Assembly (NCBI GenBank): GCA_011390065.1 | Contig: JAABTD010000011.1 | Coordinates: 1-42,358 of the forward strand | Length of the DNA stretch: 42,358 bases | Reading direction: 5' to 3' | Source: Desulfobacteraceae bacterium | GTDB lineage: Bacteria > Desulfobacterota > Desulfobacteria > Desulfobacterales > JAABSP01 | Shown: one piece after another, positions 6,993 through 42,358 of the stretch | Layout of the letters: each line of letters starts with the position of its first letter | Position numbering within the stretch: the stretch's first letter is position 1 | Made by a program: the position numbers and the translations under genes | Notes under the pieces: model-generated | Seen by the model: the letters and a program-made list of their open reading frames with translations, nothing else | Databases searched by the model: none | Told to the model about the DNA's origin: nothing

Positions 6993-7388
6993 ATGTCAAT
7001 AAGTGATCCCATTGCGGATATGCTGACCCGAATCCGGAACGCGGGAAGGGCGAAATTCAACAGCACGGATATCCCCGGTTCCAAATTAAAGGTCGCGATG
7101 GCCAAAGTCCTTAAAGAGGAAGGGTATATCCGGAATTACAAATTCGTCAAAGATGGAAAGCAGGGAATCCTTCGGATCTATCTGAAATATCATGAAGGCG
7201 TCAATGCCATCTACCGTCTGGAGAGGGTGAGTAAGGCGAGCCGTCGGGTGTACGCCAAAAGCACTGATATCGCACCTGTTTACAGCGGCACGGGCGTCGC
7301 TATTCTCTCCACCTCCCGGGGCGTCATGACGGACAAGCGCGCGAAAGCAGAGAACATCGGCGGAGAGATTCTCTGCAAGATCTGGTAA
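6993..7388 (+). CDS. rpsH: 30S ribosomal protein S8
   Basis: S8 nucleates the central domain of 16S rRNA and in enterics represses the spc operon. The 131-residue protein has SDPIADMLTRIRNAG at the start, the central LKEEGYIRNYK and the C-terminal GVAILSTSRGVMTDKRA with the closing GGEILCKIW. A GGAGAAAACG stretch precedes the ATG. Confidence 0.97.
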   Translation: MSISDPIADMLTRIRNAGRAKFNSTDIPGSKLKVAMAKVLKEEGYIRNYKFVKDGKQGILRIYLKYHEGVNAIYRLERVSKASRRVYAKSTDIAPVYSGTGVAILSTSRGVMTDKRAKAENIGGEILCKIW

Positions 7389-39205: not shown

Positions 39206-40306
39206 TTGGAAAAGGAGAAAAATCCCGGTTTGGTTCAGTTCAGAGGCGTGATGAAGCGGTTCGGCGATGTGCTGGCCGTCGAAAAAACCGATCTGGACAT
39301 CCCTGAAGGCTCCCTGGTCACGCTTCTGGGGCCGTCGGGCTGCGGCAAGACGACCCTGCTTCGGATGGTGGCGGGCCTGGAGACGCCCACCGAGGGCGAC
39401 ATCTACATCAAGGGCAACCGGATCAACGATGTTCCGATCCACAAACGGAACCTCGGGATGATTTTCCAGAATTACGCCCTGTTCCCCCATAAAACGATTT
39501 TCGACAACGTCGCCTTCGGTCTGAAATACCGGAATATCCCCAAAGACCAGATCAAGGAAAAGGTCTCCCGGGCCCTGGAAATGGTCCGCCTGCCGGGGGT
39601 GGAAAACCGGATGCCCTCCCAGCTCTCCGGGGGCCAGCAACAGCGGATCGCCCTGGCCCGGGCCATCGTCATCGAGCCGGACGTGCTCCTCATGGACGAA
39701 CCCCTGTCGGCCCTGGACGAGAACCTGCGGGAGGAGATGCGCCTGGAGATCGACAACATCCAGCGGATGCTCGGGGTCACCAGCATCTTCGTCACCCACG
39801 ACCAGCGCGAGGCCCTGTCCATGTCCGACAAGATCGTGGTCATGGAAGGGGGCAGGAAGCAGCAGGAAGGCGGGCCGGAGGAGGTCTACAACAATCCGGC
39901 GAACCACTTCGTGGCCGACTTCCTGGGCCATTCCAATTTCGTGGACGGCGTGATCCAGAGCCGGGACGGCGACGGCTATCGCGTAAAGCTCGAAGACGGC
40001 AACGAATTGATGGCCGAAGGCGGCGACTGGCGGGAAGGCGACGCCGTGGAAGTGGTGGTGCGCGCCCAGAAGCTGGACATCGTCCCGCGGGATTCCCACC
40101 AAACCGACGACGCGGTCAACTGCTTTTTCGGCAAGATCAAGGAACGCAGCTACATGGGGGGCGAGGTGAGTTACTTCGTGGAACTGGAGAACGGAACGGT
40201 GCTTCATGTCATCGGCATCGTCAAGACCAAGCCGTTTCGGAGAGGGGATCCGGTGGCGGTGACGGCGCCGCCGCGGCATTGTAAGTTGTTGCGGAAGGAA
40301 TCATGA
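39206..40306 (+). CDS. ABC transporter ATP-binding protein, PotA type (TTG start)
   Basis: ATPase of the polyamine-type importer (366 residues). Walker A GPSGCGKTT, Q-loop FQNYALFPH, signature LSGGQQQRIALARA, Walker B LLMDEPLSALD, and switch His in FVTHDQREALSMSD are all intact. The C-terminal TOBE-like domain (about residues 240-360) follows the ATPase core. The start is TTG at 39206, preceded by GGGAGAG; an ATG at 39201 is out of frame. It is separated from the binding-protein gene by a repeat element, but no separate promoter is evident. Confidence 0.92.
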   Translation: MEKEKNPGLVQFRGVMKRFGDVLAVEKTDLDIPEGSLVTLLGPSGCGKTTLLRMVAGLETPTEGDIYIKGNRINDVPIHKRNLGMIFQNYALFPHKTIFDNVAFGLKYRNIPKDQIKEKVSRALEMVRLPGVENRMPSQLSGGQQQRIALARAIVIEPDVLLMDEPLSALDENLREEMRLEIDNIQRMLGVTSIFVTHDQREALSMSDKIVVMEGGRKQQEGGPEEVYNNPANHFVADFLGHSNFVDGVIQSRDGDGYRVKLEDGNELMAEGGDWREGDAVEVVVRAQKLDIVPRDSHQTDDAVNCFFGKIKERSYMGGEVSYFVELENGTVLHVIGIVKTKPFRRGDPVAVTAPPRHCKLLRKES

Positions 40307-40440
40307 TTGGGCGTTGTTTGGGATCGCTTGATACGTGGAGAAACAGTAAAAAAGATGTATATTTCATAATTCCGCAGCCGCTTGTGAATAAATGGAGCCG
40401 CATAAGGACAAGGTGGCGGCAGACATAAAAACATGACCTT

Positions 40441-40475
40441 TCAGCCATGCCAAAAGCATGGCTGATTTCTTTTGT
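40441..40475 (+). terminator. Intrinsic terminator downstream of the importer operon
   Basis: TCAGCCATGC (40441-40450) and GCATGGCTGA (40456-40465) form a perfect 10-bp stem with a CAAAA loop, followed by TTTCTTTTG. It lies 134 bases after the importer ATPase stop and should end that transcript. Confidence 0.8.
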
Positions 40476-40561
40476 CGGACAGCATCCAAATTGTTATGAT
40501 GACCGTCTTGGGCGATAAAGTCCGACTGTCGGATAGTGTCATTAATTGGATGTTGGCCGAC
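40474..40561. repeat. Long imperfect inverted repeat
   Basis: Matching segments run inward from both ends: GTCGG/CCGAC, CATCC(A)AATT/AATTGGATG and ATGAC/GTCAT, with a centre holding the 13-base palindrome TCCGACTGTCGGA (40521-40533). The right end is followed by five T. It could be a decayed mobile-element end or a structured RNA. The boxes do not fit an attC. Confidence 0.5.
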
Positions 40562-40699
40562 TTTTTGTTGGTGAGCTTAATGCGGAAAAAAAGATATAAA
40601 TTCAATTTTTTAGAATTTAGTTTGTGAAACTTCGATCCTTTTTATAAAATGAAAAGAGATTCTTATTTTGAATGTTGACCGGAAACCGTACAATCACTG

Positions 40700-40706
40700 G
40701 TTAGGC
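40700..40706 (+). promoter_or_regulatory. Integron-type recombination core site (GTTRRRY)
   Basis: GTTAGGC matches the GTTRRRY core consensus and lies 18 bases upstream of the cassette gene's ATG. Recombination would cut after the G, so the cassette begins at 40701. No matching RYYYAAC partner or stem is seen upstream, so this is an attI-like or secondary insertion site rather than a full attC. Confidence 0.6.
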
Positions 40707-40723
40707 TGGAGGAATAAAAGACC

Positions 40724-41080
40724 ATGGAAGCGATGACACTTCCGATTGGAGTCGGGGCGATAGTCGGCGCTATCATCGGACTCAAAGTCTTTTTCACGCT
40801 TTGGCGGATTCTGGAGAAACGCCTCCATCCTGAGAACTTCGTTAAGCCATCATCAACACCCGAGACCGCGTTCCGAGGCCTCAAAGGCAAGGCCATCATC
40901 GTCCACATGAAGAACGGCGAGGTCATATCGGATGTTAAGTACAAGGCGACGCTCTTCTTTGGTCATGGAGAATTCGGAACGTGCACTCTTGTCTATTTTG
41001 ACATGGAGAGAAGCGACGGGGCCCAGGTGTTCATCTGTGGAACAGACATCCTGAAAATTGAGACAACCAAGAAAGCCTAA
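40724..41080 (+). CDS. Cassette-borne small membrane protein, function unknown (118 aa)
   Basis: The protein has one N-terminal membrane helix (about residues 6-28, IGVGAIVGAIIGLKVFFTLW), then a soluble domain (about 50-115) of alternating beta-like segments (KAIIVHMKNGEVISDVKYKA, TLVYFDMERSDGAQVFICG). I do not recognise a family; the soluble part reads like a small beta-barrel or SH3-like fold. The stop codon TAA (41078-41080) lies inside the left core of the attC, as is common for integron cassettes. GGAGGAA precedes the ATG by about a dozen bases. The cassette carries no promoter that I can identify. Confidence 0.75.
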   Translation: MEAMTLPIGVGAIVGAIIGLKVFFTLWRILEKRLHPENFVKPSSTPETAFRGLKGKAIIVHMKNGEVISDVKYKATLFFGHGEFGTCTLVYFDMERSDGAQVFICGTDILKIETTKKA

Positions 41081-41151
41081 CACTATCCTGAACCGTATTT
41101 CAAAACCGCCGCTTCGCTCTGGTTTTGAAAACGGTTAGGATCACGTTGGGC
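41075..41151 (+). other. Integron attC recombination site
   Basis: The 77-base element has the left core GCCTAAC (RYYYAAC, 41075-41081) and the right core GTTGGGC (GTTRRRY, 41145-41151). Between them are inner arms ATCCT-G-AACCGT (41085-41096) and ACGGTT-AGGAT, with an unpaired G in the left arm (an extrahelical base, the classic strand marker), then TTTCAAAACC/GGTTTTGAAA with a further unpaired A, and a terminal loop GCCGCTTCGCTCT. The site lies directly 3' of the cassette gene, in the expected orientation. Confidence 0.85.
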
Positions 41152-41220
41152 ATCGCGGTTGAGAGAAAAAGCTGTAGATAGTGTTATTGAATATTCATTT
41201 GCCAATGAAAGGAGCTATAA

Positions 41221-41463
41221 TTGGCGCAATCACCACTAAAATCATTGCATCCTGATAGCTCTTTGAGCAATGCAAAGCTGGAAGCTTACAGTAAGATAGG
41301 CACACCAGGTCTTATTGACTCCTTAAAACCAGGCGAACCAGGATCATTAAAGGTTCAGTCGAATGGTACTATCATGGATGGTCACCATCGTATTCATGTC
41401 CTTCGAGAGCGTGGAATAGATGTTGATGCATTGCCTCGAGATATTCAGGAGAGAAAAGGGTAA
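41221..41463 (+). CDS. ParB/Srx-fold-like small protein (80 aa, TTG start)
   Basis: The 80-residue protein has the motif GTIMDGHHRIHVLRERGIDV (D53, G54, H55, H56, R57), which resembles the GxxR core of ParB/sulfiredoxin-fold domains, where a GNHR-type loop binds nucleotide. The rest is too short for a whole ParB; it may be a minimal domain or a partner protein. TTG at 41221 is preceded by AAAGGAG (41208-41214). It lies 6 bases before the phosphatase gene, so the two form a bicistron. This pair begins shortly after the attC, so it is likely a second cassette or an insertion next to it. Confidence 0.65.
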   Translation: MAQSPLKSLHPDSSLSNAKLEAYSKIGTPGLIDSLKPGEPGSLKVQSNGTIMDGHHRIHVLRERGIDVDALPRDIQERKG

Positions 41464-41469
41464 AAAACC

Positions 41470-42111
41470 ATGAGTGTCGATATCTTCTGGATACCTTTTG
41501 AAGGACCCGGCCGAATTGGCATTTCAACACGGCCGAGCGGAGGGGACTGGCTAAAAGATGATATCCGTTATATTCGTGAAGCTGGAACGGACTTGCTGGT
41601 TTCTATGCTAACACCTGCCGAGGTTGACGAATTAAAACTATGGATGGAAAAGGAACTATGCCAAAAGGAAGGGTTGATTTTTCAATCCATTCCCGTTCAG
41701 GATCGAGGAGTGCCACAGACAAGGAGAGAGATTGATGGATTTGTACACCAGCTGGCAGGACTTTTTGAGAGCGGTACAAATATTGTCGCTCATTGTCGCC
41801 AAGGTATAGGTAGGTCGGCTATGATGATTGCCTTAATAATGGTTGCATGCGGAATGGAAGTCAATCATGCGTTTGAAATAATAGCAGAAGCTCGTGGTCG
41901 TCCTGTGCCTGATACTGAGGAACAACATGCTTGGGTTGAACAATATGCGGCGGGTCTGAACATATCAGATCAATTGAAAGTAGCTGAAAAAGTGGAGCCA
42001 TACCAACCCATATCCCAAGCATCCAAAGAGCAAATTGGGTCTGAGATAATAGACGTGACCGGACCAGCCCAACCAATAAATTCAGCGGAGCGCAAAAAGC
42101 GCGCCCGCTGA
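41470..42111 (+). CDS. Cys-based protein phosphatase (dual-specificity/tyrosine type)
   Basis: The 213-residue protein contains the phosphatase P-loop HCRQGIGRS (residues 108-116; nucleophile C109, R115), matching HCX5R. A likely general acid is D78 in VQDRGVP, about 30 residues before the loop, as in the family. The N-terminal part (about 1-75) gives the alpha/beta core, beginning IFWIPFEGPGRIGIS. After residue 165 a tail with low complexity ends in a basic RKKRAR. Its substrate is unknown. It is coupled to the ParB/Srx-like gene upstream. It is AT-richer than the genes of the main chromosome segment. Confidence 0.82.
   Translation: MSVDIFWIPFEGPGRIGISTRPSGGDWLKDDIRYIREAGTDLLVSMLTPAEVDELKLWMEKELCQKEGLIFQSIPVQDRGVPQTRREIDGFVHQLAGLFESGTNIVAHCRQGIGRSAMMIALIMVACGMEVNHAFEIIAEARGRPVPDTEEQHAWVEQYAAGLNISDQLKVAEKVEPYQPISQASKEQIGSEIIDVTGPAQPINSAERKKRAR
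42082..42111 (+). terminator. Hairpin over the phosphatase stop codon
   Basis: TCAGCGG/CCGCTGA and GCGC/GCGC pair around an AAAAA loop, with the TGA stop inside the right arm, followed by TTTAAA. This may serve as a weak terminator for the two-gene unit; the T-tract is short. Confidence 0.45.
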
Positions 42112-42150
42112 TTTAAACGTTCTACCACCGGTGCAACAGGGAGATACAAA

Positions 42151-42264
42151 ATAATATATTCAGGCGCATGCTGCCTAAACAGACCGTTTGATGATCAAAA
42201 CTATGACGGGATACGATTAGAACCAGAAGCGATTTTTATTATCATGAATCGCATGTATGCCTGA
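42151..42264 (+). pseudogene. Decayed PIN-domain fragment
   Basis: The frame from 42151 reads IIYSGACCLNRPFDDQNYDG then IRLEPEAIFIIMNRMYA and stops at 42262-42264. It matches the N-terminus of PIN-domain toxins (pattern IYLDTCCLNRPFDDQ..RIRLEAEA). The catalytic Asp appears replaced by Gly, no ATG precedes it, though GGGAGA sits at the right place before the ATA at 42151, and most of the protein is missing. It is a relic of a toxin gene. Confidence 0.6.
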
Positions 42265-42325
42265 GACAGCCAAAAAACCGTTGAAGAATAAACAGAGACG
42301 GTTTCAGTAAGCTTTGGGGATAGTT

Positions 42326-42358
42326 ATGACACAAATAGCAGAACAATTCAGCGATGTT
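42326..42358 (+). CDS. Possible start of a gene running off the window
   Basis: ATG at 42326 is preceded by GGGGA (42316-42320) and opens a frame MTQIAEQFSDV that continues to the end of the window. Eleven codons are too few to identify it; the start and ribosome-binding site are the only support. Confidence 0.35.
   Translation, partial: MTQIAEQFSDV

Follow-up and report, generated by a model that had tools for sequence, protein, structure and literature searches.

How did integron gene cassettes come to lie in a contig that holds no integron integrase gene? The locus that raises this question is in the window, the whole 42,358-nucleotide stretch of DNA analysed here, which is contig C135 of a draft genome (5.04 Mb, 464 contigs, 98.6% completeness). 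The initial annotation described a cassette beside a core transporter operon. The cassette is real, but the locus is now better read as a relic integron, with an attI-like site, the remnant of an integrase gene leader, and a second cassette. Its features are as follows.

40440 to 40561, minus strand: relic of the 5' leader and promoter region of an intI gene, now lost, that read leftwards (nhmmer E value of 5.2e-11)
40655 to 40702, plus strand: attI-like site, core CCGTACAATCACTGG/TT, with the slash marking the crossover at 40700/40701 (41.6 bits, E value of 6.6e-10 with profile R3)
40701 to 41145, plus strand: gene cassette 1, 445 bp, one open reading frame (ORF); starts with (G)TTAGGC, of which its R'' is the exact reverse complement
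40724 to 41080, plus strand: ORF of cassette 1, 118 amino acids, with a probable N-terminal membrane segment (translation and profile searches)
41075 to 41151, plus strand: attC of cassette 1, from R'' GCCTAAC to R' GTTGGGC, the R' belonging to cassette 2 (fold, shuffles, and covariance model)
41146 to 42119, plus strand: gene cassette 2, 974 bp, two ORFs; starts with (G)TTGGGC, of which its R'' is the exact reverse complement
41221 to 41463, plus strand: ORF of 80 amino acids, ParB-like by eye (DGHHRIHVLRERG), with no profile match
41470 to 42111, plus strand: dual-specificity or tyrosine phosphatase of 213 amino acids (Pfam DSPc, 1.4e-11; Tc-R-P, 5.3e-11; PDB relatives)
42067 to 42125, plus strand: attC of cassette 2, from R'' GCCCAAC to R' GTTCTAC (covariance model, 23.4 bits, E value of 0.00036 in the window)
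42120 to 42358, plus strand: start of a further cassette or right end of the array, up to the end of the contig (42153 to 42255 is 79% identical to positions 7037 to 7139 of locus L111)

Two cassettes and their attC sites

The core GTTAGGC at 40700 to 40706, the ORF stop within the left core GCCTAAC, and the 77-base attC ending in GTTGGGC were all found as initially annotated, and the paired arms described there folded into a near-perfect hairpin (-36.3 kcal/mol for the top strand and -34.1 for the bottom). This attC is the sole RYYYAAC...GTTRRRY pair of attC-permitted length in the 42-kb window. Its symmetry of 0.779 compares with a maximum of 0.766 among candidates in 200 dinucleotide-shuffled versions of the window (8.5 Mb in total), and a looser cut was passed by only 8 of 398 shuffle candidates. 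We also trained our own covariance model on 15 other attCs, taken from class 1 plasmid integrons and from relatives in the order and aligned with their loops trimmed. The model scored the attC at 21.8 bits (E value of 0.001 in the window), and also detected the second attC at 42067 to 42125, whose right-hand R', GTTCTAC, departs from the GTTRRRY consensus. The initial annotation, which listed one cassette, had therefore captured only half of the content.

In a true cassette, the R'' of the attC pairs with the first bases of that same cassette when it is circular. Start and R'' are exact reverse complements at seven of seven positions both in cassette 1 (GTTAGGC and GCCTAAC) and in cassette 2 (GTTGGGC and GCCCAAC). 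The cores flank an imperfect palindrome and each R'' is complementary to its own cassette's start, as in integron gene cassettes, and the claim that cassette 1 is genuine is upheld by fold, shuffles, covariance model, and start match alike. Because the covariance model scores are by themselves marginal at whole-genome scale (E value of ~0.04 for the second attC, the first not being listed), the case for two cassettes rests on the combined evidence. When the attC DNA was searched against its own genome, only its own locus and chance matches were returned, and an Rfam search of 40300 to 42358 gave nothing over threshold. Having two attCs but no nearby gene for an integron integrase, the array falls within the definition of a CALIN, for which we used the IntegronFinder 2.0 threshold of at least two attCs. 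Two more probable attCs lie on contigs C91 and C254 of the same genome (L104, 1929 to 1987, and L099, 6417 to 6496), one on a short contig and one near a contig end; one of them has a perfect R''/R' pair, GCATAAC/GTTATGC.

The cassette 1 protein belongs to no family in Pfam, NCBIfam, or PADLOC and has no match in plasmids or phages. Its relatives are found in Verrucomicrobia and Lentisphaerae metagenome-assembled genomes (MAGs) at 48 to 69% identity. Since one of these relatives sits between GTTAGGC and GCCTAAC (L046) and another has an attC-like site directly 5' of it (L047), sequence comparison suggests a cassette family spanning different phyla. Beyond cassette 2, the contig ends 233 bp past the second attC, and the stretch from 42153 to 42255 resembles the 5' part of a gene, PIN-domain-like by eye, of the same-genus genome G084.

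The attI-like site and the leader of a lost integrase gene

The left flank of the array, from 40250 to 40698, is 90% identical to the same locus in G084, and its last ~45 bases recur elsewhere in that genome. There, the ~45-bp motif (core CCGYAYAATCACTGG/TT) lies 90 bp from an intact, divergently oriented 507-amino-acid IntI reading frame, which is the position of an attI site. This IntI passes the TIGR02249 cut-off (374 versus 265 bits), and the match begins at residue 196 of the frame, making it an extended IntI. By homology, the window site therefore shares what defines an attI site: a place beside intI, divergent orientation, and junction with the first cassette at G/TT. It was detected with profile R3, built from 20 motif copies with the window copy left out, and is the only copy found in its own genome. 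Within the site is TACAAT, a candidate for the -10 box of a promoter serving the cassettes; a TACAAT/TATAAT box is conserved among the motif copies, and a promoter scan of the window did not list TACAAT. In G084, a second attI-like copy (L050, 16434 to 16474) lies ~390 bp past the second attC of the array, before another ORF.

A leader profile, made from the region upstream of four sister-genome attI copies, had its best match in the window at 40440 to 40561 and also matched the orthologous G084 locus (L106; E value of 8.4e-12). That locus retains the leader relic together with most of the motif; from the core onwards its sequence diverges, and other genes lie beyond. Because both are kept in the ortholog, the leader relic is older than the divergence of the two species, and what lies behind it has since changed. 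The initial annotation had also raised the possibility that the cassette segment is conserved in relatives without integrons; instead, the G084 locus holds an attI relic without cassettes, and G084 is itself not free of integrons, having its intact IntI elsewhere in the genome.

The reported lack of an intI gene near the cassette extends to the whole contig, and no integrase passed the TIGR02249 cut-off in the 5.04-Mb assembly; this absence could be an assembly gap, since the genome is a draft in 464 contigs. The locus has only the leader relic in place of the intI gene that a complete integron carries in cis with attI, and its attI-like site sets it apart from an attG array, which lies in ordinary chromosomal DNA. 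We conclude that it is very probably a relic sedentary integron that has lost intI while keeping the attI-like site and cassettes, that is, a CALIN formed by intI loss. This origin can be read directly here because the attI-like site and the intI leader relic remain.

The ancestral unit would have lain 3' of a potABCD-type transporter operon, with intI reading leftwards, then the attI-like site with its candidate promoter, and the cassettes reading rightwards. Established integron chemistry suggests that cassettes would have entered by recombination of the folded attC bottom strand with attI, between G40700 and T40701, using IntI supplied either in cis, by the gene since deleted, or in trans, by a different integron. 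Of intI itself, which was deleted, only part of the 5' leader is left; the attI-like site and two cassettes remain. The TACAAT box just 5' of the crossover probably drives the first cassette, although this is a weak inference. Cassette exchange would now be conceivable only with IntI supplied in trans, and on this analysis the array is possibly still loadable in that way.

Off-target insertion, a published route to CALINs (PMC8618304), would instead have an IntI encoded elsewhere place the cassettes in a non-classical genomic site (attG) whose left flank is ordinary chromosome. The absence of intI in cis agrees with this; however, the left flank is the very motif that elsewhere occupies the attI position beside an intact IntI, and an intI leader relic lies 5' of it. 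The case is thus largely refuted at the left boundary, and we regard such an origin as very unlikely.

The initial annotation had offered a choice between an integrase-less cluster and an integrase lying past the end of the window. A complete integron split by assembly, with intI beyond the right end or on an unassembled piece, is suggested by the short distance from the second attC to the contig end and by the fragmented MAG. In an integron, however, intI normally lies on the attI side of the array. An integrase past the right end is therefore improbable, because the attI side is the left one, which lies wholly within the contig and holds the leader relic only, and an assembly of 98.6% completeness gave no TIGR02249 match over the cut-off. 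We give a split integron a very small chance and retain the integrase-less cluster, read as a relic that lost intI.

A dispersed family of attI-like sites

Matches to the motif (profile R3, E value of 0.001 or better) occurred in 35 of the order's 291 genomes, with as many as 15 in a single genome. Outside the order, none was found in a phylum sample of 395 genomes (E value of 1e-4 or better); the two matching genomes both belong to the order, one being that of the window. Weak matches (22 to 28 bits, many in family f23) were mostly without attCs and were left out of the set of established copies. A comparison of 63 distinct copies showed strong conservation as far as G/TT and an abrupt drop beyond. 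Across 64 motif loci (503 kb), with palindromic double matches counted once, there were 32 attC matches in 22 loci, all but one of them downstream of the motif on the same strand (31/32; binomial P value of 5e-18), at a density ~30-fold above that of the window's own genome (9 matches in 5 Mb). Cassette start and R'' agreed at 87 of 124 variable positions, compared to 52 in shuffled pairings, with 0 of 20,000 shuffles reaching 87, and 13 of 31 pairs were perfect where 1.5 were expected. Starts outside the GTTRRRY consensus were among these, for example GTTATAC in L144, whose R'' is GTATAAC. Since the attCs lie downstream on the motif strand and the starts agree with R'', the motif is a cassette junction and not a promoter alone.

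It is extremely unlikely that the repeated motif is the promoter or operator of a regulon and not a recombination site. The TATAAT is positioned as a -10 box would be, and some copies have an upstream palindrome, but conservation stops exactly at G/TT, the seven bases past it correspond to R'' in the attC that comes next, same-strand attCs lie downstream, and IntI or its remnants adjoin several copies; the two roles can coexist. Chance palindromes beside the operon, in keeping with the marginal genome-scale model scores, are effectively refuted by the combination of independent tests, namely, that no shuffle candidate was as symmetric, that two consecutive R''/start matches are exact, and that an attI motif and intI leader relic are present.

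The remnants beside several of the motif copies are divergently oriented and derive from the same long IntI. Residues are numbered mostly on the 507-amino-acid open frame of G084; because the true start is likely near residue 40, residues 1 to 39 represent leader. What remains is residues 1 to 306 and 483 to 507 in L144 (from a one-contig, 6.9-Mb genome), 1 to 210 and 275 to 345 in L108, 36 to 122 and 451 to 507 in L162, 1 to 81 in L146, and 479 to 507 only in L110; L107 and L109 retain mainly the intI leader, and L212 has an interrupted intI gene. The window, with its leader relic, represents the final stage of this series. An IntI match at an E value of 1e-40 or better is present in 107 of 194 genomes from the order, and 92 have one over the cut-off. 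Many sister genomes carry several attI-like sites with intI at differing stages of decay. Genome G093, with 15 motif copies, has neither an IntI over the cut-off nor intI remnants at the copies; in situ decay may therefore not explain every solo site, and some may have spread by another route. The dispersed sites may also be dead relics only.

A 666-bp spacing between IntI match and motif, common to G024:C278 and G084:C168, was dismissed as independent evidence because the two contigs are 99.7% identical over 4.3 kb, an identity that, between different families, probably reflects cross-binning or very recent transfer. In genome G167, the same ~167-bp segment with an attC, which leaves little room for an ORF, comes after the motif at three loci (L221, L229, and L230). 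A weak inverted second motif lies ~150 to 240 bp away in L212, L221, and L229, and a ~30-bp palindrome, CGGCTAACA...TGTTAGCCG, lies directly 5' of the attI-like core in L144, L146, and L153 (G117 and G093).

Known integrase-less arrays and viral contigs

CALINs have been proposed to originate by off-target insertion, intI loss, or rearrangement (PMC8618304, PMC9024848), and their origin is hard to read from single loci. Like other CALINs, the window array has two attCs in one orientation and no integrase gene in cis; unlike them, it keeps an identifiable attI-like site and an intI leader relic. One CALIN with its own attI has been published, in Shewanella prophage M16-3, where the same attI type precedes a complete integron and an integrase-less array in one genome (PMC9892861). 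That is a single case, whereas the family described here is dispersed, with up to 15 copies per genome in one order and graded intI decay. Pseudogenes and intragenomic duplicates of intI, as well as longer deltaproteobacterial IntI proteins (clade 15, ~120 amino acids longer), have also been published (PMC2426708). That survey likewise found intI decay and duplication to be common and IntI to be extended as here; conserved dispersed attI-like sites with cassettes were not described there, and the likeness to clade 15 is one of IntI length alone. Functional delta-attI sites are known inside mobile integrons (PMC12901181). A literature search, confined largely to open-access papers and so weak evidence of novelty, found none that speaks of orphan, solitary, dispersed, or multiple attI sites.

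CALINs and intI pseudogenes were already known; the novelty lies in a family of attI-like platforms dispersed across genomes of a whole order, with intI decayed to graded extents. By definition the window array is a CALIN; it is also demonstrably a relic integron and belongs to this family. Because the family offers intact, truncated, and nearly erased intI as well as solo platforms in one order, all sharing a site that can be searched for, both action in trans and the route by intI loss become directly testable. The series shows how integrase-less cassette clusters can arise, and the motif supplies an attI-like sequence for integrons other than class 1, whose attI sites have been poorly characterized (PMC9024848). 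More tentatively, and with the odds somewhat against it, the order's integrons might form a distributed network in which scattered solo attI platforms without their own intI would be loaded in trans by one IntI per genome, and a phage group may share the core CCGCATAATCACTGG/TT and tap in.

The exact core CCGYAYAATCACTGGTT occurs in 27 stretches of viral contigs (IMG/VR). In eight of these (L266, L268, L270, L271, L273, L274, L275, and L279) it is followed by attC matches on the same strand, and in six of the eight R'' is exactly complementary to the bases after GTT. ORFs inside the viral stretches run mostly in the opposite direction, and several encode DNA methyltransferases; portal or terminase genes are present in L268 and L274. 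No IntI was seen in the viral stretches examined, save for one weak 24% match in L278. The viral copies are possibly phage-borne attI-like sites or attC halves with the same core. The idea that all of the phage core matches are due to chance was dropped, with about one-third having attC matches downstream; the remainder look like chance, as with one apparently coding segment present in six near-identical copies.
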